A DNA stretch of 38,655 nt, taken from the NCBI GenBank assembly GCA_002306295.1, contig DBRI01000022.1, positions 15,734-54,388 of the forward strand, given 5' to 3'. Source of the stretch: Patescibacteria group bacterium UBA1372. Lineage in GTDB: Bacteria; Patescibacteriota; Microgenomatia; UBA12405. The notes beneath the pieces were generated by a model. The model had not been told where the DNA came from. It was given only the letters and a program-made list of their open reading frames with translations, and did no database searches. Shown here piece after piece: positions 3,616 through 27,338 of this stretch (the stretch's first letter is position 1; the number at the start of each line of letters is the position of its first letter). A program made the translations under genes and the position numbers.

Positions 3616-4820
3616 ATAAACCAAACATTTTAATGATTACCCCATACTTGCCTTACCACTCTCAAGCCGGCGGCCAAACCAGGTCTTATTACCTGCTTAA
3701 GCACTTAGCTAAAAGAAACAATATTACCTTAATTTGTTTTACCAGAGACAAAACCGGTCTGTCTGAACTTAAAAAAATCTGTAAAAAAGTCATACTTATT
3801 AAAAGAGGTAAAACCTGGGATTTTAAAAAAGTAATTTACACCGCCCTAAGTCCATATCCCTTTTTAGTTACCAATTATCTTAGCTCGGAACTTAAACTGG
3901 CCATCAAAACTGAATTAGAAAATGGTAATTACCACCTGATTCATACTGAGTGTTTCTACTTAATGCCAAATATTCCCAAAACTAATATCCCCATAATTTT
4001 AGTAGATCAAACCATAGAATACGCTGTTTACCAGCATTTTGTTGAATCAATTGCCGGCTGGAAACAAATTATAAAACCTTTTTTATGGATTGACGTCTTT
4101 AAGCTTAAATTCTGGGAAGTCTTTTACTGGAAAAATACCCACACTGTGGCGGCAGTTTCCAAAGATGACAAAAAACTAATGTCATCTATGGCCAAAAGAC
4201 AGGATATCCGCCTGGTACCAAACGGTGTAGCTCAGCGATACTTTAATCCTAAAAAAAATGTTTTTAAAACCAAACACCCCTCTATCCTTTTTGGTATTTC
4301 CAATATGAAATGGATGCAAAATAGGGAAGGAGCCGAACTACTTATTACCAATCTGTGGCCAAAAATTAAACAAAAAATCCCCCAGGCTAAACTCTATGTT
4401 ATCGGCCGAAACGCTCCTCAAACTTTCCAAAAATATATAAATGATGATATTGTCATCAAAGAGGCCGAAAATGACGGCCAAACTTATGATCCCCAATATT
4501 TTTATCAAAGCTGTTGGATACTACTTGCCCCCATTAAAAGTGGAGGAGGCTCTAGGACCAAATTTTTTGAAGCTATGGCCAGCCGTTTGCCTATAGTCAC
4601 TACCAGACAAGGCATGGAAGGTATCAATATTAAAAACAATCTCCATGCCATAGTCTGCCCCTACTCCAAACTAATTGACAAATCAATTTCTCTGTTAAAA
4701 AATCGTCAGCTTCAGGACACTATCGGTAAAAATGCCTCAATTTTGGTTAAAAAAGAATATTCCTGGGCTAAAAGCGCCCGAAAACTTAATAAAATTTATA
4801 AACAAATTATTTCCAAATGA
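3612..4820 (+). CDS. GT4-type (group 1) glycosyltransferase
   Basis: 402 residues with the GT-B two-domain layout. The N-terminal domain starts ILMITPYLPYHSQAGGQTRS, and the C-terminal domain has the donor-binding pattern SGGGSRTKFFEAMASRLPIV, with an E-rich loop as in GT4 enzymes. It starts with ATG overlapping the stop of the GT39-like gene (ATGA) and ends in ATGA with the next gene, so it is translationally coupled. A role in assembling the surface glycan is inferred from context; sugar specificity is not visible. Confidence 0.88.
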   Translation: MNKPNILMITPYLPYHSQAGGQTRSYYLLKHLAKRNNITLICFTRDKTGLSELKKICKKVILIKRGKTWDFKKVIYTALSPYPFLVTNYLSSELKLAIKTELENGNYHLIHTECFYLMPNIPKTNIPIILVDQTIEYAVYQHFVESIAGWKQIIKPFLWIDVFKLKFWEVFYWKNTHTVAAVSKDDKKLMSSMAKRQDIRLVPNGVAQRYFNPKKNVFKTKHPSILFGISNMKWMQNREGAELLITNLWPKIKQKIPQAKLYVIGRNAPQTFQKYINDDIVIKEAENDGQTYDPQYFYQSCWILLAPIKSGGGSRTKFFEAMASRLPIVTTRQGMEGINIKNNLHAIVCPYSKLIDKSISLLKNRQLQDTIGKNASILVKKEYSWAKSARKLNKIYKQIISK

Positions 4821-15275: not shown

Positions 15276-16156
15276 TATACCACAGCCCAGTTTTGGTAAA
15301 TGAAATTAATCAAATTCTAGCTCCTTTTGTCTCAAAAACTATCATCGATGCCACTCTTGGCAATGGTGGTCATACTATTAACTTTTTAAACCAAGGTGCC
15401 ACTGTTTTTGGTATAGACAAAGATCAAACCAATCTAAGTATTACCACCAATAGAATCCGGAAATTAAACCTAGAAAAAAATTTTACTGGTATATTATCTG
15501 ATTTTACTGATTTATCTTTAGTCTCTAAAAAACTTATTAATAGACCTGTCGATGCCATACTTTTCGATCTGGGTTTAAGCATAAACCAACAAAAATCAAC
15601 AAATAGGGGATTTTCATTTCAAGATGACCTTTCACTAGATATGCGTCTCAACCAAAATCAAAATACTCCAACGGCCAAAGACATTATTAATTCTTATTCT
15701 GTCCAAGAGCTTTTCTCTATCTTTTCAGTCCTCGGTCAGGAAGTCCATAGCCTCTTAATTGCCCAATCTATAGTTAAACAACGTCAATTAAAACAATTTC
15801 ATACCGCCAAATCTTTAGCTGATTTCATAGTATCCATTTTTAAACAAAACAATCTTAGCATAGGCAAAATCCATCCAGCCACCAAAATATTTCTAGCTCT
15901 AAAAATTGCTGTCAATGATGAGTTAAATAACCTGACATCTGCCCTAAATCAAAGCTTAAGTCTAATTAAACAATCTGGCTGGATTTTAGTTATTACTTTT
16001 CATTCAACCGAAGATAGACTAGTCAAAAATTTTATTAAATCGTCAAAAAGCCAAACAATAATTACCAATATTCTTAAAATCAAACCAAATTTTAAGGAGA
16101 TAAAACAAAATCCACTCAGCCGCTCAGCTCTTTTGAGAGCTTTTCAAAAAGTATGA
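15272..16156 (+). CDS. rsmH: 16S rRNA m4C1402 methyltransferase RsmH
   Basis: 294 residues. The SAM-binding motif IIDATLGNGGHTINFL lies near residues 25-40, followed by FGIDKDQTN, AILFDLGLSINQ and RGFSFQDDLSLDMRL. Near the C terminus, ITFHSTEDRLVKNF and NPLSRSALLRAF complete the family pattern. It N4-methylates C1402 in the ribosomal P site and is the usual first gene of dcw clusters; mraZ is absent here. It overlaps its neighbours by 4 nt on both sides. Confidence 0.95.
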   Translation: MIYHSPVLVNEINQILAPFVSKTIIDATLGNGGHTINFLNQGATVFGIDKDQTNLSITTNRIRKLNLEKNFTGILSDFTDLSLVSKKLINRPVDAILFDLGLSINQQKSTNRGFSFQDDLSLDMRLNQNQNTPTAKDIINSYSVQELFSIFSVLGQEVHSLLIAQSIVKQRQLKQFHTAKSLADFIVSIFKQNNLSIGKIHPATKIFLALKIAVNDELNNLTSALNQSLSLIKQSGWILVITFHSTEDRLVKNFIKSSKSQTIITNILKIKPNFKEIKQNPLSRSALLRAFQKV

Positions 16157-18054: not shown

Positions 18055-19317
18055 GTGTTTCAAGCCTTAAAAAATATCTTCTGGCACCAACCTCTAAGCT
18101 TACTTGCCAGAGCCTACTATCTCTTTCCAGACAAAAAACTAACCATAATTGGTATAACAGGCACTGATGGTAAAACCACTACTGCTCACCTCATTTATCA
18201 TGTCCTTAAAAATGCTAATTTACCTGTTTCTCTTATCAGTACCATTGAAGCCAGAATTGGTGACCAAGTAGTCAACACCGGTCTTCATACTACCAGCCCA
18301 GATAAATTTAAAACTTTTAATCTTATCAGACAAATTTCTAAATCCGGCTCAAAATATTTAGTAGCTGAAGTCACCGCACACGGCATTGATCAACATAGAT
18401 TTGCCAATATCATCTTTGATATAGGTATTATTACCAACACTAGTCATGAACACCTGGATGATTTTAAAACCATCAAAAAATACATCCTAACCAAAGTTAA
18501 ACTTCTTAAAAATTCCAAAATTGCTATTATCAATAAAGATGACGACTCTTATTCTTATTCAAATTTAATAAAATCTAAAAAGATCTTTTACAGTCGAAAA
18601 GTTGGCTCTACTTATCAAGCCAAAAATATCAGGCTAACTCCCGACAGTCTCTCATTTAACTGTCACCAAACCAAGTTTGTAACCGACAGCATCTATGAAT
18701 ATCAGATATATAATATCCTAGCTGCCTATATTGCCTGTAAAAAATTGAAAATTAAAGATTCTGTTTTTCTGGATACTATCAAAAATTTTCCAGAAGTTAA
18801 GGGTAGACGTCAACATATAGACAATTCTCTTGGCTTTAAAACTATTGTAGATTTTGCTCACACTCCAAAAGCTCTAACAGAAACATTAAAAAGTTTAAAA
18901 AAACAAACAAAAAATCGATTAATAGTCATTTTTGGAGCCACTGGCGGCAGAGATAAAACCAAAAGACCTTTGATGGGCTTGGCCGTCTCAAAATATGCCG
19001 ATATTGCCCTTATTACCGCCGACGATACCCGACTGGAAAATATAAGGGATATTAATAATCAAATAATTTCAGGTATACCCAAAAATTGTCAATTCTTAAA
19101 ATCTAACCAAACAAAATCTATTGATCCAAAACGATTTACTTATTTTGACATTGTCAATAGACAAGATGCTTTTAATCTGGCAGTTAAAATTGCCTTACCT
19201 GGGGATACCATAGTTGCCTGTGGAAAAGGCCACGAAACCACTATCCTTCATGGCAAAACTGATTATCCCTGGTCTGAAGCCGAAGCCTTTAGGACTGCTT
19301 TTAAACTCAAAAAATAA
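18055..19317 (+). CDS. murE: MurE-type Mur ligase lacking the N-terminal UDP-binding domain
   Basis: 420 residues from GTG. The ATP-binding loop GITGTDGKTTTAHL is at residues 33-46 (K40), whereas in usual ~490-residue MurE proteins it lies near residue 110. Only ~30 residues precede it, so the uridine-binding D1 domain is missing; upstream is FtsI coding sequence, so no extension is hidden. Further motifs: TSHEHLD, KGRRQHID, VDFAHTPKAL, GATGGRDKTKRPLM and GKGHETTILHG, all MurE-like. The amino-acid-selecting DNPR position reads DDTR, so the third residue of the stem peptide cannot be assigned to DAP or Lys. Confidence 0.85.
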   Translation: MFQALKNIFWHQPLSLLARAYYLFPDKKLTIIGITGTDGKTTTAHLIYHVLKNANLPVSLISTIEARIGDQVVNTGLHTTSPDKFKTFNLIRQISKSGSKYLVAEVTAHGIDQHRFANIIFDIGIITNTSHEHLDDFKTIKKYILTKVKLLKNSKIAIINKDDDSYSYSNLIKSKKIFYSRKVGSTYQAKNIRLTPDSLSFNCHQTKFVTDSIYEYQIYNILAAYIACKKLKIKDSVFLDTIKNFPEVKGRRQHIDNSLGFKTIVDFAHTPKALTETLKSLKKQTKNRLIVIFGATGGRDKTKRPLMGLAVSKYADIALITADDTRLENIRDINNQIISGIPKNCQFLKSNQTKSIDPKRFTYFDIVNRQDAFNLAVKIALPGDTIVACGKGHETTILHGKTDYPWSEAEAFRTAFKLKK

Positions 19318-19320
19318 TAG

Positions 19321-19929
19321 ATGCCTAAATACAACCTTACACCAAATTTACCACTTGAAATTATTTATCAGAAAGGGTTTTTACCTCAAAGAAACAATCA
19401 AAAATATTTTTACCAAGACTCATCATCCAGAAGCAATCTAACCAACGCCACACTTTCTTCAGAAAACAGGCGAATTCTAAAAAAGACTCAAAAATTCGGC
19501 CATAAAATTGAATCTATTGATCAATTCGATTTTAATTCCCAAGTCCTAAAAAAATGTTCAACTTGGTCAAAACAATTAAATTGGAAATTTCCCAGCAGTT
19601 CCATAAAAACAATTTTCACTAACCACTTATTTAATTATATTTACACCTGGTCAGATACAGACAAAGTCGTCGGCTATTCTATCTGTTTGTTTGAAAAAAA
19701 TTTTTCCCACATAGCCTACGTATTTTATGACCCGGCTTACACCAAAACAGATTTACCTATTAGATTGTCTCTTCAAGTCATAATTGATTCAATCGACAAA
19801 AATCTATCCTTTTGTTATCTGGGTAGATTCAACCCCATTCTTAAAACCGGTTTTTACAAAAGAAACTTTCCTAATTTTCAAATTTACAATTACAAACTTA
19901 AAACTTGGCAAGATTTTAAAAAATCATGA
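19321..19929 (+). CDS. ATE/Bpt-like aminoacyl-tRNA transferase-fold protein (tentative)
   Basis: 202 residues. The layout resembles the C-terminal, GNAT-like domain of arginyl/leucyl-tRNA-protein transferases (ATE1/Bpt): SSENRRILKKTQKFGHKIE corresponds to the basic S-x-x-x-R-x-L-x-K stretch, then HIAYVFYDPAY to the Y-x-F-F-D-P-E-Y segment, then FCYLGRFNP to YLGY. The Cys-rich N-terminal motif of Bpt is absent. It sits between two Mur ligase genes, with a 3-nt gap to murE and a 4-nt overlap downstream. A role in adding an amino acid from tRNA to a wall precursor, as Fem proteins do, is an inference. The fold assignment is from by-eye comparison only. Confidence 0.5.
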   Translation: MPKYNLTPNLPLEIIYQKGFLPQRNNQKYFYQDSSSRSNLTNATLSSENRRILKKTQKFGHKIESIDQFDFNSQVLKKCSTWSKQLNWKFPSSSIKTIFTNHLFNYIYTWSDTDKVVGYSICLFEKNFSHIAYVFYDPAYTKTDLPIRLSLQVIIDSIDKNLSFCYLGRFNPILKTGFYKRNFPNFQIYNYKLKTWQDFKKS

Positions 19930-21239
19930 ATATCTATATTGTCGGTATTGCCGGTAAAATGACTGCTCCCTTAGCAGTCGAACTGAAAAACTTAGGCCAT
20001 CAAGTCAGCGGCTCAGATCAATCTTTAATTTACCCACCCATCAGTACTCTTCTTAAAAAAAATAAAATTCCAGTTAACAAGAGTTTGATTAGTTCAAAGA
20101 TTGACCTAGCTATTATTGGCTCAAGCTACAAAAAATTTTCCAATACCAGAAAAGATTACCAGGATATTTTAAAGCTAAATATACCCCACACTTCTGCAAC
20201 TAAATATATTGCTCAAAACATCGTCAAACCAAATTCTATAATTGTAGCCGGCTCATTTGGTAAAACTACCATAACCGGACTATTAAGTTTAATTTTAAAA
20301 AATTCAGATTTAAACCCTAGTTATCTAATTGGTGATGTTGTTTTAAACAAAATTCCATCTCTAAAAATTAGCAACTCTGTTTGGTCAATTGTAGAAGGAG
20401 ACGAATCCATAAATGGCCTGGACACAAAAGCCAAATTTTTATATTACCGTTCTTTATACGTTATTATTACTAGCGTCAATTGGGAACACACTGATAGCTA
20501 CAATAGTCTGGCTAAAAACTTAGAAGCTTATAAAAAATTAATTCAATCTATTCCTGAAAATGGAGTTTTAGTTTATAATCCGGATGATTTAAATTTAGTC
20601 AAATTAACAAAATTTTGCCGTGCTCCTATTATTGCTTACAACAAGAAACTTAAATTTAATACCAGCCTAATTGGGGTTTATAATCAGCAAAATATTCAAG
20701 CTGCCTATACCTTAGCTCAATTTCTAAACATACCACAGGCTATCATTCAAAAATCGATTAAATCATACAAAGGTATTAGCAGAAGACTTCAAAACCTTGG
20801 TACTTTTGGGAGTATTACATTCATCGATGATTTTGCTCAATCTCCACCCAGAATCAAATCAGCTCTTGATGCCATATCGACTGCCTTTCCCAAACAAAAA
20901 ATTGTAGTTCTTTTCGAACCTCATGCTTCCTTTTTACAAGATAAAGACACAATCTCAAAATTAAAAGACGCTTTTTGCAAAGCTGATCAGGTAATTTTGG
21001 CAAAAATACCATACAAAAAAGATTATAAAAAACAGCCTAGACTTAGTTTTAAAAACTTCAAAAAAACACTGGGGTCAAAAGTAATTTATTTGCCTCTATA
21101 CGATCAAATATATGACTATTTAACTATAAATTTACCCGTTAACTCCATCTTAATTCATATGAGCTCGGGTGGAGCTGTAGGTATCAAAACCTTTTCCAAA
21201 ATAATTAACTACTTTAAAAATAAACCACTTAAGGGTTAA
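19926..21239 (+). CDS. MurC/Mpl-like UDP-MurNAc ligase
   Basis: 437 residues with all three Mur ligase domains. N-terminal NIYIVGIAGKMTAPLA and GHQVSGSDQ resemble MurC/Mpl. The ATP loop is VAGSFGKTTITGLL (K113), with Ser where His usually stands. The central EGDESINGLDTKAKFLYYRS and SVNWEHTDSY match Mpl (EADEYDT...KFxHYRP...FDHAD) better than MurC. C-terminal FIDDFAQSPPRIKSAL and VVLFEPHAS are family motifs. MurC adds L-Ala to UDP-MurNAc, whereas Mpl reattaches recovered tripeptide. With no other MurC in the window, either role is possible. Confidence 0.8.
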   Translation: MNIYIVGIAGKMTAPLAVELKNLGHQVSGSDQSLIYPPISTLLKKNKIPVNKSLISSKIDLAIIGSSYKKFSNTRKDYQDILKLNIPHTSATKYIAQNIVKPNSIIVAGSFGKTTITGLLSLILKNSDLNPSYLIGDVVLNKIPSLKISNSVWSIVEGDESINGLDTKAKFLYYRSLYVIITSVNWEHTDSYNSLAKNLEAYKKLIQSIPENGVLVYNPDDLNLVKLTKFCRAPIIAYNKKLKFNTSLIGVYNQQNIQAAYTLAQFLNIPQAIIQKSIKSYKGISRRLQNLGTFGSITFIDDFAQSPPRIKSALDAISTAFPKQKIVVLFEPHASFLQDKDTISKLKDAFCKADQVILAKIPYKKDYKKQPRLSFKNFKKTLGSKVIYLPLYDQIYDYLTINLPVNSILIHMSSGGAVGIKTFSKIINYFKNKPLKG

Positions 21240-21257: not shown

Positions 21258-22589
21258 ATGTCAAGATATATCATCAACGGCGGCAAACCCCTAGAAGGAG
21301 AAGTTTCTATTAGAGGCGCCAAAAATGCCGGCTTCAAAGAAATTATTGCTAGTCTTTTAACAGACCAGCCTTGTCTAATTACTAATCTGCCTCAAATTTC
21401 AGATGTCAGATTAACTACTAGCATAGCTACTCAATTGGGTTCAATTGTTGAACAATTTGGCCAACATAGTTTAAAAATTCATACACCTGCTATTACTTCT
21501 TCGACTATACCAAGAGGTACTGGCGAAAAATCAAGAACCTCCTTTATTTTTACCGGTCCACTATTAGCTAGAACCGGTAAAATAACTTTTCCTACCCCCG
21601 GGGGAGATAAGCTTGGCAACCGTCCTCTCGATAGACTTTTTGAATGTCTGACTCAGATGGGTGTCACAATTGACCAATCTGATAGTTCTGTAACAATGAC
21701 TACCGACAAGCTTATTGGCACCCAATATACCTTTCCTAAACCCTCTCACACCTCAACTGAAGTAATCCTAATGACTGCCAGTTTGGCACAAGGTCAAACC
21801 ACCATTAAAAACGCCGCCAGAGAACCTGAAATTGACGATCTTATCACTATGCTTAATAGTATGGGAGCAGATATCCAAAGAGATCCTAAAGACTCGTCCA
21901 CTATCTACATCCAGGGTGTTAAAAAACTAACCGGCACCAATCACCAAGTCATAAGTGACAGAAACGAGACAGTTACTTTTGCCTGTGCTGCTCTTAGCAC
22001 CAAAGGATCAATTAATATTTTAAAAGTTGATCCCCAAATTATTAAAAAATTTTTAGAAATCATTTCTACCATGGGAGCCAAAGTCAGTGGTGGCGAAGAC
22101 GAAATTTCTATTGCCTGGGATGGACCACTTAAAGCAATTAATATCGAAACAGAACCGGAACCCGGTTTTATGACTGATTGGCAGGCTGTTTTTAGTCTAG
22201 TTTTAACTCAAGCTGTCGGTTGCAGCCAGGTTATTGAAAGAATTTTTCCTTATAGATTTCAACACATTGATACACTCAATGCTATGGGTGCCAAAACTAA
22301 GTTTTTTAACCCAGACATTAAAGATCCTGATAATTATTATCACTTTAATCCAGAAAACAATAAACCTGAATATTTTCATGGAGTCAAAATATATGGACCT
22401 ACCAAGCTTACTCCCACCAACCTAAAAGTAAACGACTTGAGAGCCGGCGCCATGGCTACTCTGGCGGCTTTGACTGCTCAAGGTCAATCGATAGTTGAAG
22501 GTGTAGAATTTATAGAAAGGGGTTATGAAAAATTAGCTGAAAGATTAGTTGCTCTGGGTGCTGATATCAAATATATTAAAAAAACATGA
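21258..22589 (+). CDS. murA: UDP-GlcNAc 1-carboxyvinyltransferase MurA, Cys-to-Asp type
   Basis: 443 residues. It performs the first committed step of peptidoglycan synthesis, adding enolpyruvate from PEP to UDP-GlcNAc. The substrate Lys/Asn are in SIRGAKNAG (residues 18-25). The SRTSFIFTGPLLAR strand is followed by the active-site loop TPGGDKLGNRPLD. Its position equivalent to E. coli Cys115 is Asp117. The Cys-to-Asp change is known in other bacteria to keep activity and prevent fosfomycin alkylation. The later GFMTDWQA supplies the conserved Asp. It ends in a 4-nt overlap with mraY. Confidence 0.95.
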   Translation: MSRYIINGGKPLEGEVSIRGAKNAGFKEIIASLLTDQPCLITNLPQISDVRLTTSIATQLGSIVEQFGQHSLKIHTPAITSSTIPRGTGEKSRTSFIFTGPLLARTGKITFPTPGGDKLGNRPLDRLFECLTQMGVTIDQSDSSVTMTTDKLIGTQYTFPKPSHTSTEVILMTASLAQGQTTIKNAAREPEIDDLITMLNSMGADIQRDPKDSSTIYIQGVKKLTGTNHQVISDRNETVTFACAALSTKGSINILKVDPQIIKKFLEIISTMGAKVSGGEDEISIAWDGPLKAINIETEPEPGFMTDWQAVFSLVLTQAVGCSQVIERIFPYRFQHIDTLNAMGAKTKFFNPDIKDPDNYYHFNPENNKPEYFHGVKIYGPTKLTPTNLKVNDLRAGAMATLAALTAQGQSIVEGVEFIERGYEKLAERLVALGADIKYIKKT

Positions 22590-23620
22590 TTCATCTATAC
22601 CTTGGTTTAACTATTTTTTCTTTTTTAATTACTTCAATTTTGACCGTACCCTTTATTAACTTTTTATACAAAATTAAATTCAGACGTCAAAAACAAATTA
22701 CTCTCGATTTTCAAAACAAGAGAACTACAATTTTTGATAAATTTCATTCACAAAAACAAGGTACTCCGGTTGGTGGCGGTATTTTAATTATCTTGGCTGT
22801 GACTCTAATTTTTCTAATCATCTTACCTATTATGCAAATCAGCAATATTTATATTAGTCAAAATTATAATTTTTTAACCGAAATTTTTATAATCTTTTTT
22901 ACTTTCTTAAGTTTTGGTCTGCTTGGTTTATATGATGACATTCTTAAATTTTTCAACTTTAAAAAATCCGGTTTTTTTGGTCTTCGTATGAAACACAAGC
23001 TTTTCTTACAATTTTTTTTAGCTACTATAATTTCACTTCTAATTCATTTTAATCTAAAAATTGATTTTATTTACTTACCTTTATTTGGTCCTATCAAGCT
23101 TGGCTTTATGTTTATCCCCATTTCTGTCATATTTATCACTAGCTTTGCCAATTTTTTTAATATCACTGATGGACTTGATGGCTTGTCCTGTGGCCTTTTA
23201 ATGGTAGCCTTATTTGCTTTTTCAATTTTGGCTGGTAGTAGTTTTGATACTCCCATTTCGATATTTATATCTCTCTGGATTGGATCATTAATTGCTTTTC
23301 TTTATTTTAATGTCTATCCAGCCAGAATTTGGCTTGGAGATGTTGGTGCTCTGTCTTTTGGTGCCACTCTGGCCGTAATCGCTCTAATATTGGGTAAAAT
23401 AATACCCCTAGCAATTGTTGGTGGCCTTTTTATTGTTGAAGGTCTTAGCTCTGCCGCTCAAATTATTTCAAAGAAATATTTTGCTAAAAAATTACTACCG
23501 GCTGCCCCCCTCCACTTAACTCTTCAACGAAACGGTTGGGAAGAACCAAAAATTGTCAGTAGAGCCTGGTTGGCTGCTTTAATGTTAGCTGTTTTTGGAC
23601 TATGGCTAGGTCTAATTTAG
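22586..23620 (+). CDS. mraY: Phospho-MurNAc-pentapeptide transferase MraY
   Basis: 344 residues, about ten membrane helices. Characteristic cytoplasmic motifs: KQGTPVGGG, LLGLYDDILKFF, the double-Asp NFFNITDGLDGLSCG and RIWLGDVGALSFG. The last loop reads PLHLTLQRNGWEEPKIV, so the usual His-His-His is H310-L-T. It transfers phospho-MurNAc-peptide to undecaprenyl phosphate, making lipid I. It overlaps murA and the following hydrolase gene (19 nt), so the hydrolase is tightly coupled to it. WecA-like substrate use is possible but less likely given the neighbours. Confidence 0.92.
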   Translation: MIHLYLGLTIFSFLITSILTVPFINFLYKIKFRRQKQITLDFQNKRTTIFDKFHSQKQGTPVGGGILIILAVTLIFLIILPIMQISNIYISQNYNFLTEIFIIFFTFLSFGLLGLYDDILKFFNFKKSGFFGLRMKHKLFLQFFLATIISLLIHFNLKIDFIYLPLFGPIKLGFMFIPISVIFITSFANFFNITDGLDGLSCGLLMVALFAFSILAGSSFDTPISIFISLWIGSLIAFLYFNVYPARIWLGDVGALSFGATLAVIALILGKIIPLAIVGGLFIVEGLSSAAQIISKKYFAKKLLPAAPLHLTLQRNGWEEPKIVSRAWLAALMLAVFGLWLGLI

Positions 23621-24264
23621 ATAAATTAAAAAAATATATTGATAGTTATATTGACCTGCCTTATTGGTCGAACAAACTTAGAAATGGCCAAATAATCGAT
23701 AACGGCCCTTTTGGAGGCAAGGGTACAACTGCCCAAATTAGAGAAATTACTCCCTCTAACCTAAAATCTATTGATATTTACAGATTTCAAAAAAAGCACA
23801 AAATAGGCATAGATTGCTCTGGCCTTACTTATCACCTTTTAAACTATTGGTGTAAACTTCATACCGGCAAGTCTATTAAAACTAAAATAATCGGTACAGA
23901 GGGCAAATTTGGCCCAAAACGGGTTAATGTTCAGATGCTTTCCAGTCCCCAAAATTCGATTAAAATAAGCAACCTATCAGACATAAAAACAGCTGATCTA
24001 ATAGTCATTGACCAAAAAAAACATGTTTTGTTCGTCATTGAAAAAATAAAAGACAAAATTTATTACGTCCACAGCAGTCAAAAAACTAAAAAGACTGGAG
24101 TTCACTACGGCACCATTACTCTAACTAATCCTGATAAACCCCTAAATTATCAACAATTTTCTGATATTACCAAAACAAACATTGGCTACCAAAATCTATT
24201 TTTCTCAAACAAAGGCGACGGTATCTACAGACTTATTTCTCTTCAATCAATTCCCCGTATTTAA
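23602..24264 (+). CDS. NlpC/P60-like cysteine peptidase or transferase
   Basis: 220 residues with the papain-like NlpC/P60 pattern: GIDCSGLTYHLL with Cys72, KKHVLFVIEK with His141, and a third polar residue in YYVHSSQ (His157). Classic members cut D-Glu-DAP bonds in peptidoglycan, and others act as acyltransferases. There is no signal peptide or membrane helix, so it would work in the cytoplasm, unusual for a wall hydrolase. That fits precursor editing or recycling better. It overlaps mraY by 19 nt, and its last 32 nt overlap the minus-strand LysW-like gene. Confidence 0.75.
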   Translation: MARSNLDKLKKYIDSYIDLPYWSNKLRNGQIIDNGPFGGKGTTAQIREITPSNLKSIDIYRFQKKHKIGIDCSGLTYHLLNYWCKLHTGKSIKTKIIGTEGKFGPKRVNVQMLSSPQNSIKISNLSDIKTADLIVIDQKKHVLFVIEKIKDKIYYVHSSQKTKKTGVHYGTITLTNPDKPLNYQQFSDITKTNIGYQNLFFSNKGDGIYRLISLQSIPRI

Positions 24265-24397
24265 GCGGGTTTACGGATAAAATTTCTACTTCTGTAGCAC
24301 ACGCTGGACATTCCAATATGTCTCCAATGGCAATTTTTTGCTTAATAGTAAATTTTGCTTTACAATCTGGGCAGATGAGCTTTATTACTTTTTTCAT
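24233..24397 (-). CDS. lysW: LysW-like amino-group carrier/zinc-ribbon protein, 54 aa
   Basis: ATG at 24397-24395, TAA at 24235-24233. 54 residues, the length of Thermus LysW. Two CPxC knuckles (C9/C12 and C30/C33) flank a beta hairpin, followed by IGDILECPAC and EVEILSVNPLK, which align with the LysW pattern GEIVECPDC..ELEVVSLDPxK. LysW carries alpha-aminoadipate or glutamate on its C-terminal Glu during lysine or arginine synthesis. Here the tail is ELIEEK instead of the usual EDWGE, so the attachment residue is displaced by a final Lys. It is the only minus-strand gene before 36569. No lysine pathway genes are nearby, so function is open; a stand-alone zinc ribbon partner of the PLP enzyme is another possibility. 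Confidence 0.75.
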   Translation of the reverse strand: MKKVIKLICPDCKAKFTIKQKIAIGDILECPACATEVEILSVNPLKYGELIEEK

Positions 24398-24411
24398 ACA
24401 CTTTTTCAATC

Positions 24412-24428
24412 TATAATATCCTATTATA
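24412..24428. promoter_or_regulatory. Divergent overlapping -10 elements in a perfect dyad
   Basis: TATAATATCCTATTATA is an inverted repeat with 7-nt arms and a 3-nt spacer. The left arm gives TATAAT (24412-24417), 10 nt before the plus-strand PLP gene ATG at 24428. The right arm gives TATAAT on the minus strand (24428-24423), 25 nt before the LysW-like ATG at 24397. Both genes could therefore start from one shared site, and a single bound regulator could affect both. Confidence 0.5.
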
Positions 24429-25246
24429 TGTCACTTACACCCCTAATCAAGCACAAACACTTTTATATCAAAAGAGAAGATTTAAACCCCACCGGTTCGG
24501 CTAAAGATAGAGCCATTCAAGCTCAGATTAGCAATCTTTTAGCCAAAAACTACACCTCGGCCGTAATCTCTTCAACAGGTAATGCCGCCATATCAGCTGC
24601 TCATTTCTGTCAAAAAGCTAATATTGCCTTAACAGTCTTTGTATCTCCCAAAATTAATCCCCATAAACTTAAATTGATTAAAAATTATTTTGTTAATGTT
24701 ATTAGCTCAAGTAAACCAATTAGCTCTGCCTATAAATTCTCAAAAACTTATCATGCCTACAACCTTCGTCAATCCACCGACCCAGTGGCTTTTACCGGCT
24801 ATAGTCAAATAGGCCAAGAAATTATGGACCAATTGCCTCAAGTCAGCTCTATTTTTATACCAGTTGGTAGTGGCACTACTTTATATTCAATTGCCAAATC
24901 TACCCCAAAACATGTTTTAATTTATGCTGTTCAGCCAGCTAATAACCCTTCCATAGCCTCTTTTTTTGATAAAAATTACAACCCGGAAAATTTTAGCTCA
25001 ACCGATTCTCTGTCTGTCAAATTTACACCTCTAAAGCAAATAATTATCAGACTTCTTAAAGCTCGGGGTGGGGGATTAGTTATCAATGACCATCTTATTC
25101 AACAGCAACTTGCCAACCTAAATAAACTATCTATTAATACCTCCGCCGAATCTGCTTTGGCCATTGCCGGTCTTGTCAAAGCCAAACTTTTAAAAATCGA
25201 CATTGGTAAATTTCCTCTAGTTATATTTACCGGCACAAAAAGATGA
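24428..25246 (+). CDS. Threonine-synthase-like PLP enzyme (fold type II)
   Basis: 272 residues from ATG 24428. An earlier in-frame ATG (24338) lies inside the LysW-like gene and upstream of the TATAAT, so it is rejected. The start MSLTPLIKHKHFYIKREDLN is the normal family N terminus. GSAKDRA gives the Schiff-base Lys26, SSTGNAAIS (48-56) the substrate loop, and PVGSGTT (145-151) the PLP-phosphate loop. Fold-type II enzymes of this group carry out beta or gamma elimination/replacement (threonine, cysteine, diaminopropionate synthesis). It is shorter than typical threonine synthase (~350), and the true substrate is unknown. It ends in a 4-nt overlap with the ATP-grasp gene. Confidence 0.8.
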   Translation: MSLTPLIKHKHFYIKREDLNPTGSAKDRAIQAQISNLLAKNYTSAVISSTGNAAISAAHFCQKANIALTVFVSPKINPHKLKLIKNYFVNVISSSKPISSAYKFSKTYHAYNLRQSTDPVAFTGYSQIGQEIMDQLPQVSSIFIPVGSGTTLYSIAKSTPKHVLIYAVQPANNPSIASFFDKNYNPENFSSTDSLSVKFTPLKQIIIRLLKARGGGLVINDHLIQQQLANLNKLSINTSAESALAIAGLVKAKLLKIDIGKFPLVIFTGTKR

Positions 25247-26322
25247 TTAAACATATTGAATCAACTATAAATGAGTCTGCCTATCTAATTTTCTTTCCCA
25301 TAGTTGACCCATTTTTAGATCTAAGCCTTCCTCAAATTAAAAATCTTCATCTCTTGTATCACACCCCTCCTCAAACAAAGCCGGTCAATAACTATTTTGT
25401 TTCACCTACATCTAAAGCTAAATCAGAATCAGTCCTAACCAACATAGACGTCCAAAAATACATCGACACTACCTGTAAAAAACTTGGAAAAACCGCAGCT
25501 ATTATGCCATTTAAACCATCAGCCAAAATTGATTTATTTTGTCAAAAAAATAACTTTCTATTAGTCAGTAACCCTAGAACTTTAAATCTTCAATTTGAAG
25601 ATAAAATAAATTTTGCCAAAATTTGTACAAAAAATAAAATCAATACAATTCCATTTTTTGTTGATAATTTAAATCAAAAAAATATTGATAAAGCTCAATC
25701 ACTTTTTAAAACCGATAAAATTGTCATCCAGGTAAAAACCGGTTGGGCTGGTAATAGCACTTATTTAAGTGACCTGGCTTTAAAAACACTACCTCCTGAG
25801 AGTACGGTTAAATTTATGCCATTTATAAAAGGTACTACCTACATTCAAAATGGCTGTATCTACCAAAAAAATATGATTACTAGCCCGGTTGGCATTCAGC
25901 TAAATAACCCCCAGCACTCCAAAAATATATTTGCCACTACTGGCCGGAGTTGGCCTTCAAATCTAGACCAAACCAGCCTTAATAAAATAAAAGCAATTAA
26001 TGACCAACTAGAAACAATTTTTGTCAACTCAAATTACCGAGGCTTTTTTGGCCTTGATTTTTTAATTGATCAAAACGATAATGTCTACCTGACAGAATGC
26101 AATCCCAGACTAACAGCTTCATTTAATTTTTATACCCACCTAGAACTAAAGAATAATATTGTTCCTCTGCTTTATCTTCATCTGCTTGAGTTTTTAAACC
26201 TAAACATCAATCTTGACATTAGAGATCTCAAGTCCAGATTTTTAAATCAAAAATTAACAGGAACCCAAATAACTAAGAGAAACGACCAAGGTAAAATAGT
26301 TGATACCTTAGAAACATGTTAA
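25243..26322 (+). CDS. ATP-grasp ligase of unknown substrate
   Basis: 359 residues. The ATP-grasp core is seen in KIVIQVKTGWAGNS (Lys for ATP), FMPFIKGTTYIQN and the metal/ATP motif GFFGLDFLIDQNDNVYLTEC with NPRLTAS following (267-294). The ENPR-type ending resembles amino-acid ligases and PylC/carbamoyl-phosphate-type grasp enzymes more than Ddl or LysX. Such enzymes activate a carboxylate as acyl phosphate and join it to an amine. Coupled to the PLP enzyme (4 nt) and ftsW (7 nt), it may form an amide with an unusual amino acid, or replace the missing Ddl; both are inferences. Confidence 0.75.
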   Translation: MIKHIESTINESAYLIFFPIVDPFLDLSLPQIKNLHLLYHTPPQTKPVNNYFVSPTSKAKSESVLTNIDVQKYIDTTCKKLGKTAAIMPFKPSAKIDLFCQKNNFLLVSNPRTLNLQFEDKINFAKICTKNKINTIPFFVDNLNQKNIDKAQSLFKTDKIVIQVKTGWAGNSTYLSDLALKTLPPESTVKFMPFIKGTTYIQNGCIYQKNMITSPVGIQLNNPQHSKNIFATTGRSWPSNLDQTSLNKIKAINDQLETIFVNSNYRGFFGLDFLIDQNDNVYLTECNPRLTASFNFYTHLELKNNIVPLLYLHLLEFLNLNINLDIRDLKSRFLNQKLTGTQITKRNDQGKIVDTLETC

Positions 26323-27338
26323 AAAATTATTTAATCTCCATAACCTATGCTCTACTAATAATAGGCATAATTTTTTTATCAACCGGCTCACTTTTTGAAG
26401 CCCAAGCTAATCTTGGTGATCAGTTAATTTTTTTCAAAAAACAATTTGCTTGGATCATTGTTGGATCGGTTTTTTTTGGCATAAATTCGAAATTATCATT
26501 CAAATTTATTCAAAAAATTGCTACCCCCCTCTATCTAGTTTCAGTTATCTTTTTGCTTCTTTTATTTATTCCAGGCTTTAGTTCAAAAATTTTTGGTGCC
26601 AATCGCTGGTTAAATCTAGGACCACTGTCTTTCCAACCAACCGAATTTTATAAATTTACTAGCCTTTTATTTTTTTCCAATCTATTCAGTAAAAAAACAT
26701 CAATTGCTCAATTGGCCTTTTTTGGCTTACCTCCGGCTCTACTTATCTTATTTCAACCTGCACTCAGCTCAACCATTTTAACTACGGCCATTATCGTTAC
26801 TATATATTTCTTTAGTCAGCAGGATGTAAAAAGCCTATCTATTGTCTTATTATCCCTTTTACTAATGTTTGCCTTATCTATTGTTTTGTCACCCTACCGA
26901 CTTAAAAGGTTAACTGCTAATTATCATCAAGACCAATTAACAATTAGCCTGGGATCCGGATCGCTATTTGGTAAAGGCATCGGTAACTCAACCCAAAAAT
27001 TTAAATTTATACCCCAAATCAGTACTGACTCAATTTTAGCCATAATCGGAGAAGAAACAGGGTTTGTCGGCATGACTTTTTTATTAGGATTATTTTATTT
27101 GTTGATAAAAAAAATTATCAATATTTCTTTAGTCGCCAAATCAAATTTTCAAAAACTTTTTGCCATAGGTCTAGCTAGTTGGATTTTTTATCAATCGGCT
27201 ATCAACATTTCAGTTGTCTCCGGACTTATCCCACTAACCGGTATTTCCTTACCCTTAGTATCCTATGGGGGATCATCCCTTTTAACTCTTATGTCTGCCC
27301 TTGGTATAGTTAATAATATTAGTCACACTCATGCCTAA
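26316..27338 (+). CDS. ftsW: SEDS peptidoglycan polymerase FtsW
   Basis: 340 residues, about nine or ten membrane helices. Family motifs: ANRWLNLGPLSFQPTEFYKF, a large external loop with GSGSLFGKGIGNSTQKFKF, then IIGEETGFVG, and the end GISLPLVSYGGSSLL. SEDS proteins polymerise lipid II glycans and pair with a class B PBP, here FtsI. It is placed just before murG, as in standard dcw clusters, so it is named FtsW; the second paralog at 34018 is then the RodA candidate. Confidence 0.88.
   Translation: MLKNYLISITYALLIIGIIFLSTGSLFEAQANLGDQLIFFKKQFAWIIVGSVFFGINSKLSFKFIQKIATPLYLVSVIFLLLLFIPGFSSKIFGANRWLNLGPLSFQPTEFYKFTSLLFFSNLFSKKTSIAQLAFFGLPPALLILFQPALSSTILTTAIIVTIYFFSQQDVKSLSIVLLSLLLMFALSIVLSPYRLKRLTANYHQDQLTISLGSGSLFGKGIGNSTQKFKFIPQISTDSILAIIGEETGFVGMTFLLGLFYLLIKKIINISLVAKSNFQKLFAIGLASWIFYQSAINISVVSGLIPLTGISLPLVSYGGSSLLTLMSALGIVNNISHTHA

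Follow-up and report, generated by a model that had tools for sequence, protein, structure and literature searches.

Known systems and layout of the locus

In the LysW/LysX and ArgW/ArgX systems, a zinc-ribbon carrier is accompanied by an ATP-grasp ligase and by enzymes that act on the tethered amino acid. The tail of LysW ends in glutamate (EDWGE-type); this C-terminal Glu bears the amino acid, and its side chain holds amino acids via their amine. Here we describe a related gene set in the window, by which we mean the whole stretch of 38,655 nucleotides that was analyzed (positions 15,734 to 54,388 of contig DBRI01000022.1, assembly GCA_002306295.1, Patescibacteria group bacterium UBA1372). 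This set, called the module below, encodes a LysW-like carrier, a fold-II pyridoxal 5'-phosphate (PLP) enzyme, an ATP-grasp ligase and an NlpC/P60-like peptidase, and it is embedded in a cell-wall gene cluster. It resembles the LysW and ArgW systems in its homologous carrier, its ATP-grasp ligase and the presence of proposed enzymes for a tethered amino acid, but differs by a terminal Lys instead of Glu, another ATP-grasp subfamily, the PLP enzyme and the linkage to wall genes. Taken as a whole, the data are best explained by a carrier-protein pathway supplying residue 2 of the peptidoglycan stem, an explanation that we favor with some reserve.

Other described systems share part of these features. 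The order MurC, MurD, MurE and the use of free D-glutamate (D-Glu) belong to textbook bacterial wall synthesis, and mycobacteria possess CysO-CysM-Mec, in which an amino acid is released through the joint work of a small carrier, a peptidase and a fold-II PLP enzyme, with no ATP-grasp ligase. The module is similar to the latter in parts, with a different carrier fold and chemistry. Its proposed product equals that of the MurI-MurC-MurD route, UDP-N-acetylmuramic acid (UDP-MurNAc)-L-Ala-D-Glu, and it stands in the place of murD; however, MurI was not found in module genomes, and in the module loci with an Mpl-type ligase, MurC and MurD were not found, the carrier and an ATE-like gene being there instead. 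Xanthomonas uses MurD2/MurL as an alternative D-Glu source. Like the role proposed for the module, MurD2/MurL and DapF provide stem D-Glu in another way, but without a carrier or a PLP enzyme. According to PMC5885031, DapF substitutes for MurI as D-Glu source in Chlamydia, and D-Glu occupies stem position 2 in all bacteria.

The window belongs to a 675-kb assembly, 76% complete, and its closest named relatives are Candidatus Shapirobacteria. The genes of the cluster follow the order mraW, ftsI, murE, ATE-like, Mpl-type ligase, murA, mraY, nlpC-like, LysW-like (minus strand), PLP enzyme, ATP-grasp, ftsW, murG, ftsA, ftsZ. The module and its borders comprise:

24233..24397, minus strand: LysW-like carrier, 54 residues; Zn_ribbon_LysW over cut-off, match to solved LysW, tail E-E-K, divergent from the PLP gene
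24423..24450, minus strand: candidate promoter of the carrier gene; TTGATT, 16 nucleotides, TATAAT
24428..25246, plus strand: fold-II PLP enzyme (PALP), 272 residues, ATG start; PALP E 2.1e-40; proposed epimerase of the carrier-bound amino acid
25243..26322, plus strand: ATP-grasp ligase, 359 residues; ATP-grasp_3 over cut-off; proposed carrier loader
23602..24264, plus strand: NlpC/P60-like peptidase, 220 residues; Cys/His/His kept; proposed release enzyme
22586..23620, plus strand: mraY, left border of the murD slot; family matches
26316..27338, plus strand: ftsW, right border of the murD slot; family match

The nlpC-like gene overlaps mraY (end 23620) by 19 nucleotides, and the ATP-grasp gene overlaps the PLP gene by 4 and ftsW (start 26316) by 7; the gene coordinates and the overlaps with mraY and ftsW agree with the initial annotation of the window. 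The nlpC-like and PLP genes do not overlap, and the 163-nucleotide gap between them contains most of the antisense LysW-like gene, which encodes 54 residues from ATG or 58 from TTG at 24409. A scan of the whole window with Rfam returned a tRNA as its sole match.

Conservation of the module and its place in the murD slot

The ATP-grasp gene is present in 39 of 56 relatives. Among the stretches read around it, those of the window's family keep the order mraY, nlpC-like, LysW-like (minus strand), PLP enzyme, ATP-grasp, ftsW in every case in which the contig reaches far enough; families f2 and f3 keep this order minus nlpC. When named genomes were searched with the PLP enzyme, 80 loci were obtained, many of them from Shapirobacteria and so not independent. 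A LysW-like gene was located within 3.5 kb of the PALP gene in 72 of these loci, and an ATP-grasp gene was detected in 66, directly 3' of the PLP gene in 56. L212 was left out of the carrier count, its fused gene being labelled ATP-grasp. No carrier was found within 3.5 kb in seven others: L136, L175, L206 and L211 begin near a contig end, L185 has its carrier further off, and L189 and L213 have none in sight. The module occurs in Shapirobacteria, Woesebacteria, Gottesmanbacteria, Dojkabacteria, Magasanikbacteria, Taylorbacteria, WWE3 and one Anaerolineae. These data confirm that the four genes are real and that the set is conserved well beyond chance, because the gene order and the antisense placement are found again in genomes both near and distant. 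The co-occurrence with mraY and ftsW also holds in related genomes, where the genes are not scattered.

The sequence mraY-murD-ftsW is found in E. coli, in the MurI-bearing Microgenomates L218 and L227, and in L259 and L268. In Shapirobacteria the module takes the place of murD, and in the window's family it sits exactly in the mraY-ftsW gap. We surveyed 373 genomes of the window's class, taking the carrier as present at E <= 3.2e-9 and dropping six weaker hits (E 6.7e-6 to 7.2e-5). The carrier was detected in 56 genomes, and MurI was over cut-off in 104 and present at E <= 1e-15 in 114; at this last threshold, none of the 56 carrier-bearing genomes had MurI (Fisher test 2e-10, the related genomes not being independent). 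The same exclusion is seen within family f21, in which the module genus g114 is without MurI and other genera have it. Similarly, MurI was over cut-off in 0 of 25 further module genomes, mostly from other candidate phyla and including a 5.1-Mb Anaerolineae genome; four of them gave weak matches (best 44.7 bits vs a cut-off of 146.65). A glutamate racemase of the candidate phyla radiation is treated by Penalver et al., as referenced in PMC11974145.

The module exists in two variants, which differ in the genes that accompany it. In the window these accompanying genes are:

19321..19929, plus strand: ATE-like aminoacyl-tRNA transferase homologue (GNAT type), 202 residues; ATE_C matches in family members
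19926..21239, plus strand: Mpl-type UDP-MurNAc ligase, 437 residues; score to E. coli Mpl higher than to MurC, tree clade
18055..19317, plus strand (context): MurE-like ligase without the N-terminal UDP-binding domain, 420 residues; TIGR01085 314 bits, model positions 70-470

The first variant is that of the window. All 38 of the MurC/Mpl-family ligases in the 80 named loci were closer to E. coli Mpl than to MurC; the ATE-like gene was also present in 36 of these 38 loci, and no MurD was found in the Mpl-type module loci. In the class survey, 39 genomes possessed the ATE-like gene, 37 with the carrier, G003 with the ATP-grasp gene, and G030 (same family, fragmented assembly) with neither; none of the 39 bears MurI. 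The second variant is that of Gottesmanbacteria (f27), for which the ATE-like gene gave no match. MurC was expected there beforehand, on the ground that residue 1 requires it if the ATE-like gene is missing; it was over cut-off in 13 of 15 genomes, and the ligase was closer to MurC than to Mpl in the 13 loci read. No MurD was seen between mraY and ftsW in the two division clusters read (L265, L266), and the Gottesmanbacteria module itself holds a MurD-like ligase (186 bits). The MurD-like ligases of the Gottesmanbacteria and Anaerolineae modules cluster with MurD (support 100/99).

The gene set thus probably serves stem-peptide position 2, the D-Glu position, because it occupies the murD slot and includes a MurD-like ligase in Gottesmanbacteria and Anaerolineae, and because it goes with Mpl and the ATE-like gene or with MurC and a MurD-like ligase, and not with MurI. 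The initial annotation had suggested a non-standard residue for peptidoglycan precursors: the link to precursor genes stands, whereas the evidence favors position 2 (the MurD/D-Glu step) over an exotic extra residue.

A LysW-like carrier ending in lysine

The window carrier matched Zn_ribbon_LysW (PF21344) with 37.9 bits (E 1.4e-9, cut-off 27) and solved LysW-type proteins at E 1.7e-9 and 4.5e-9; with the curated LysW model TIGR01206 it reached 27.6 bits, under the cut-off of 53.2. Judged from the matches to PF21344 and to the solved proteins, it is a genuine homologue of LysW, in line with the initial annotation of this minus-strand 54-residue product as LysW-like. Action via a C-terminal Glu is not supported, as the tail reads ...E-E-K. 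The terminal Lys, together with divergent orientation to the PLP gene, was found in 72/72 carriers near PALP, and the terminal Lys also in 120/120 of the best of 1632 database homologues. With Lys as its last residue, the carrier does not share the Glu chemistry of LysW. In an alignment of 27 members, covering the part of the carrier genes known when it was built, all four zinc cysteines were invariant, as were E52 and the final K54; in a wider set of 26 members the cysteines were invariant, and E52 and K54 almost so.

The carrier gene appears to be transcribed from a promoter of its own. Of 72 related carrier genes, 26 had an exact TATAAT upstream, compared with a mean of 7.75 and a maximum of 15 after shuffling. 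In the window, TTGATT-16-TATAAT agrees with 10 of 12 promoter positions, a match expected 0.9 times per shuffle and so weak alone. A separate promoter would be explained if the carrier were needed in excess over its enzymes.

Lysine or arginine enzymes beside the carrier were seen neither in the window nor in the loci read; an ArgC-family gene is present on another contig of the assembly. This 11-kb contig (C12; locus L071, 2651-8715) carries ArgC over cut-off together with a full-length MurE, an NlpC/P60-like gene and genes for a thiamine-diphosphate enzyme and a protein resembling hydroxyacid dehydrogenases; it may be a contaminant or belong to another pathway.

PLP enzyme and ATP-grasp ligase

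The structure model of the PLP enzyme (predicted local distance difference test, pLDDT, 95) has fold II; its nearest solved folds are threonine deaminase and serine racemase, followed lower down by aspartate racemase and threonine synthase. At the position of the re-face base of serine racemase, 51/79 sequences have Ser and 28/79 Thr. Fold II, a Schiff-base Lys and a Ser or Thr on the opposite face fit an amino-acid racemase, but threonine synthases share them, so that they are no proof of one.

The ATP-grasp ligase matched ATP-grasp_3 at E 7.9e-6, and its residues E285, N287 and R289 are invariant. Its model (pLDDT 96) has the fold of amino-acid/peptide ligases and carboxylases. There was a weak match (19.2 bits) to MfnD, a gamma-glutamyl ligase, and the search of solved structures with the ATP-grasp profile gave weak matches only (best E 2.3e-4). 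RimK/LysX-type ligases were not among the fold-comparison matches listed, which excludes nothing. The window ligase reached 14.1 bits with Dala_Dala_lig_C, under the cut-off of 24, and a function as sole Ddl was rejected, because 42 of 56 relatives have PF07478 over cut-off in another place, some of these matches being to other ATP-grasps. By its family matches it is not a Ddl orthologue, the alternative that the initial annotation had named.

Other arrangements of the two genes were also found. In the Anaerolineae locus L212, PLP enzyme and ATP-grasp are fused into one protein of 905 residues, preceded by a LysW-like protein ending EEEEK and by the MurD-like ligase. In Parcubacteria the ATP-grasp lies upstream and was assigned via a profile made in this analysis (L209: E 3e-40); for the L209 candidate (1171-2811), which carries a NUDIX domain, Pfam reported only NUDIX and Tubby-like parts.

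Peptidase, ATE-like protein and Mur ligases

NlpC/P60 enzymes are known to cleave after gamma-D-Glu. The window protein matched NLPC_P60 with E 0.015 and 15.7 bits, under the cut-off of 23. Among the 10 relatives scanned, 7 matched at E <= 0.1 (best 4e-5), and Cys72, His141 and His157, the catalytic Cys-His-His of NlpC/P60, were invariant in 10/10.

Enzymes of the ATE/Bpt type transfer an amino acid onto the amine of an acidic residue, the known acceptors being N-terminal Asp/Glu. ATE_C was matched by 13/13 ATE-like members (best E 4e-8), the window copy lying just below cut-off (22.6 vs 25), and the protein is far under the arginyltransferase cut-offs. It differs from ATE1/Bpt transferases by its placement among wall genes.

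The window Mur ligase scored 129 bits to E. coli Mpl vs 76 to MurC. It reached 158.3 bits with TIGR01081, below the cut-off of 388.7, and is therefore called Mpl-type, not Mpl. In the tree, 17 ligases of module loci clustered with E. coli Mpl (support 95/91) and five full ligases of MurI-bearing genomes with E. coli MurC (96/93), the program flagging long branches and uneven composition. These five came from ten MurI-bearing stretches that were fetched, of which one more had a fragment (L225, MurC-type) and four had none. The module enzyme thus shares a Mur ligase clade with Mpl, but is the resident ligase in clusters without MurC.

MurE-like and MurF-like ligases without the N-terminal UDP-binding domain occur in module genomes, and also in the MurI-bearing L218 (16893-18098, 7857-9059). 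We considered from this shortening that the stem peptide might be built wholly on the carrier, and rejected the idea, as L218 has the equal shortening. The Woesebacteria locus L118 (1788-5356) has a full-length and a shortened MurE, the shortened copy adjoining the ATE-like gene. In L080 (9078-12644) and L187 (14155-16597), MurF-like ligases whose N-terminus is hydrophobic adjoin a FemAB-like gene (FemAB by eye) and are perhaps membrane-bound.

Proposed route to stem residue 2

The inverse polarity of the carrier tail suggests a chemistry in which the Lys side chain would hold a carboxyl, so that the alpha-amine of the amino acid stays free for the PLP enzyme. We infer every chemical step, and propose the exact scheme tentatively. 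The ATP-grasp ligase would couple L-Glu, through its gamma-carboxyl, to the epsilon-amine of the Lys that ends the carrier, leaving the alpha-amine free. The PLP enzyme would form a Schiff base with this amine and epimerize the residue to its D-form. In the Mpl variant, the ATE-like protein would put L-Ala from Ala-tRNA onto the alpha-amine, the NlpC/P60-like peptidase would cleave the gamma-D-Glu-Lys isopeptide bond, and the Mpl-type ligase would attach the L-Ala-gamma-D-Glu unit to UDP-MurNAc. In the Gottesmanbacteria/Anaerolineae variant, the released product would be D-Glu by itself, which the MurD-like ligase would add after MurC has acted. Residue 2 might also be other than Glu. It is possible, if doubtful, that in many bacteria of candidate phyla and in some Chloroflexota residue 2 (residues 1 and 2 in one variant) is made on a ribosomally synthesized, Lys-ended carrier without MurI, MurC and MurD.

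Several observations weigh against such a pathway. MurI (E <= 1e-15) and a strong carrier hit are both missing from 203/373 class genomes; the lack of MurI is therefore not module-specific, other D-Glu sources must exist, and the loss of MurI is weakened as a proof of the module's role. Some genomes with neither MurI nor carrier have MurC and MurD (L259, L268), and keeping the six weak carrier hits would put three of them (G067, G234, G318) in MurI-bearing genomes. The L262 locus (G054) has a nominally Mpl-type ligase (217 vs 194 bits) with MurD, without module or ATE-like gene. Also, the nearest PLP sequences take in threonine synthase and dehydratases, not just racemases; the ATP-grasp fold is silent on the substrate, as biotin carboxylase, PurK and amino-acid/peptide ligases all fit; and nlpC is missing from the module position in families f2 and f3. 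Finally, PMC3060825 gives for the Mpl of P. arcticus 1.4 per min on L-Ala-D-Glu vs 260 on the diaminopimelic acid (A2pm) tripeptide. The module Mpl-type enzyme would therefore have to differ or use a longer peptide.

Alternative explanations

The Mpl-type ligase leads to the explanation by salvage, which we consider unlikely. These presumed epibionts would import peptides from the walls of other bacteria, trim them with a cytoplasmic NlpC/P60-like enzyme and attach them via Mpl, the carrier, PLP enzyme and ATP-grasp doing other work. Mpl is indeed a peptidoglycan recycling ligase (PMC3060825), and G007, a Shapirobacteria relative 97% complete, had only two Mur ligases (Mpl-type and MurE), with Ddl, Alr and MurI not found; it may have a short stem peptide or one that is salvaged in part. 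However, salvage leaves unexplained why the carrier, PLP enzyme, ATP-grasp and ATE-like gene accompany Mpl, and why Gottesmanbacteria have a variant in which MurC goes with a MurD-like ligase.

We find it equally improbable that the carrier modifies a different amino acid, for example a diamino acid formed via beta- or gamma-replacement, for position 3 or the bridge, with the PLP enzyme as synthase. The family matches of this enzyme begin with threonine synthase (89.7 bits, far under the cut-off of 421) and include SbnA, and the module is near MurE in many clusters. Nevertheless, the murD slot and the MurD-like ligase of Gottesmanbacteria and Anaerolineae indicate position 2.

The combination of a small protein whose C-terminus is conserved with an ATP-dependent ligase and a protein resembling cysteine peptidases could also recall a ubiquitin- or Pup-like tag or regulator, conjugated to wall enzymes by the ATP-grasp and removed by the NlpC/P60-like enzyme. 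This is highly improbable: it gives no role to the PLP enzyme, which is yet fused to the ATP-grasp in Anaerolineae, and the known LysW homologues act in small-molecule metabolism. As remote is the idea of a zinc-ribbon regulator placed there by genomic hitch-hiking, which would suit the carrier's weak matches to many other zinc ribbons but not the divergence and terminal Lys in 72/72, nor the LysW-like protein of L193 (WWE3; 3913-4083), in which all four zinc cysteines are gone and the terminal Lys is kept.

Significance

In the literature searched, which left subscription journals mostly outside, we found no description of LysW in candidate-phyla bacteria and no paper with both LysW and the candidate phyla radiation. 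Carrier-bound amino acids are already known; the wall pathway itself would be new if the carrier route to residue 2 is right. It would give a function to families that databases name 'lysine biosynthesis protein LysW' or 'sulfonate ABC transporter', and would extend the LysW principle with reversed polarity, an amine replacing the carboxyl as anchor. It would also account for the broken-looking wall annotation of these genomes. If true, these bacteria would possess a wall pathway that is not present in ordinary bacteria, a second solution to wall-peptide synthesis in a large and mostly uncultured bacterial diversity.

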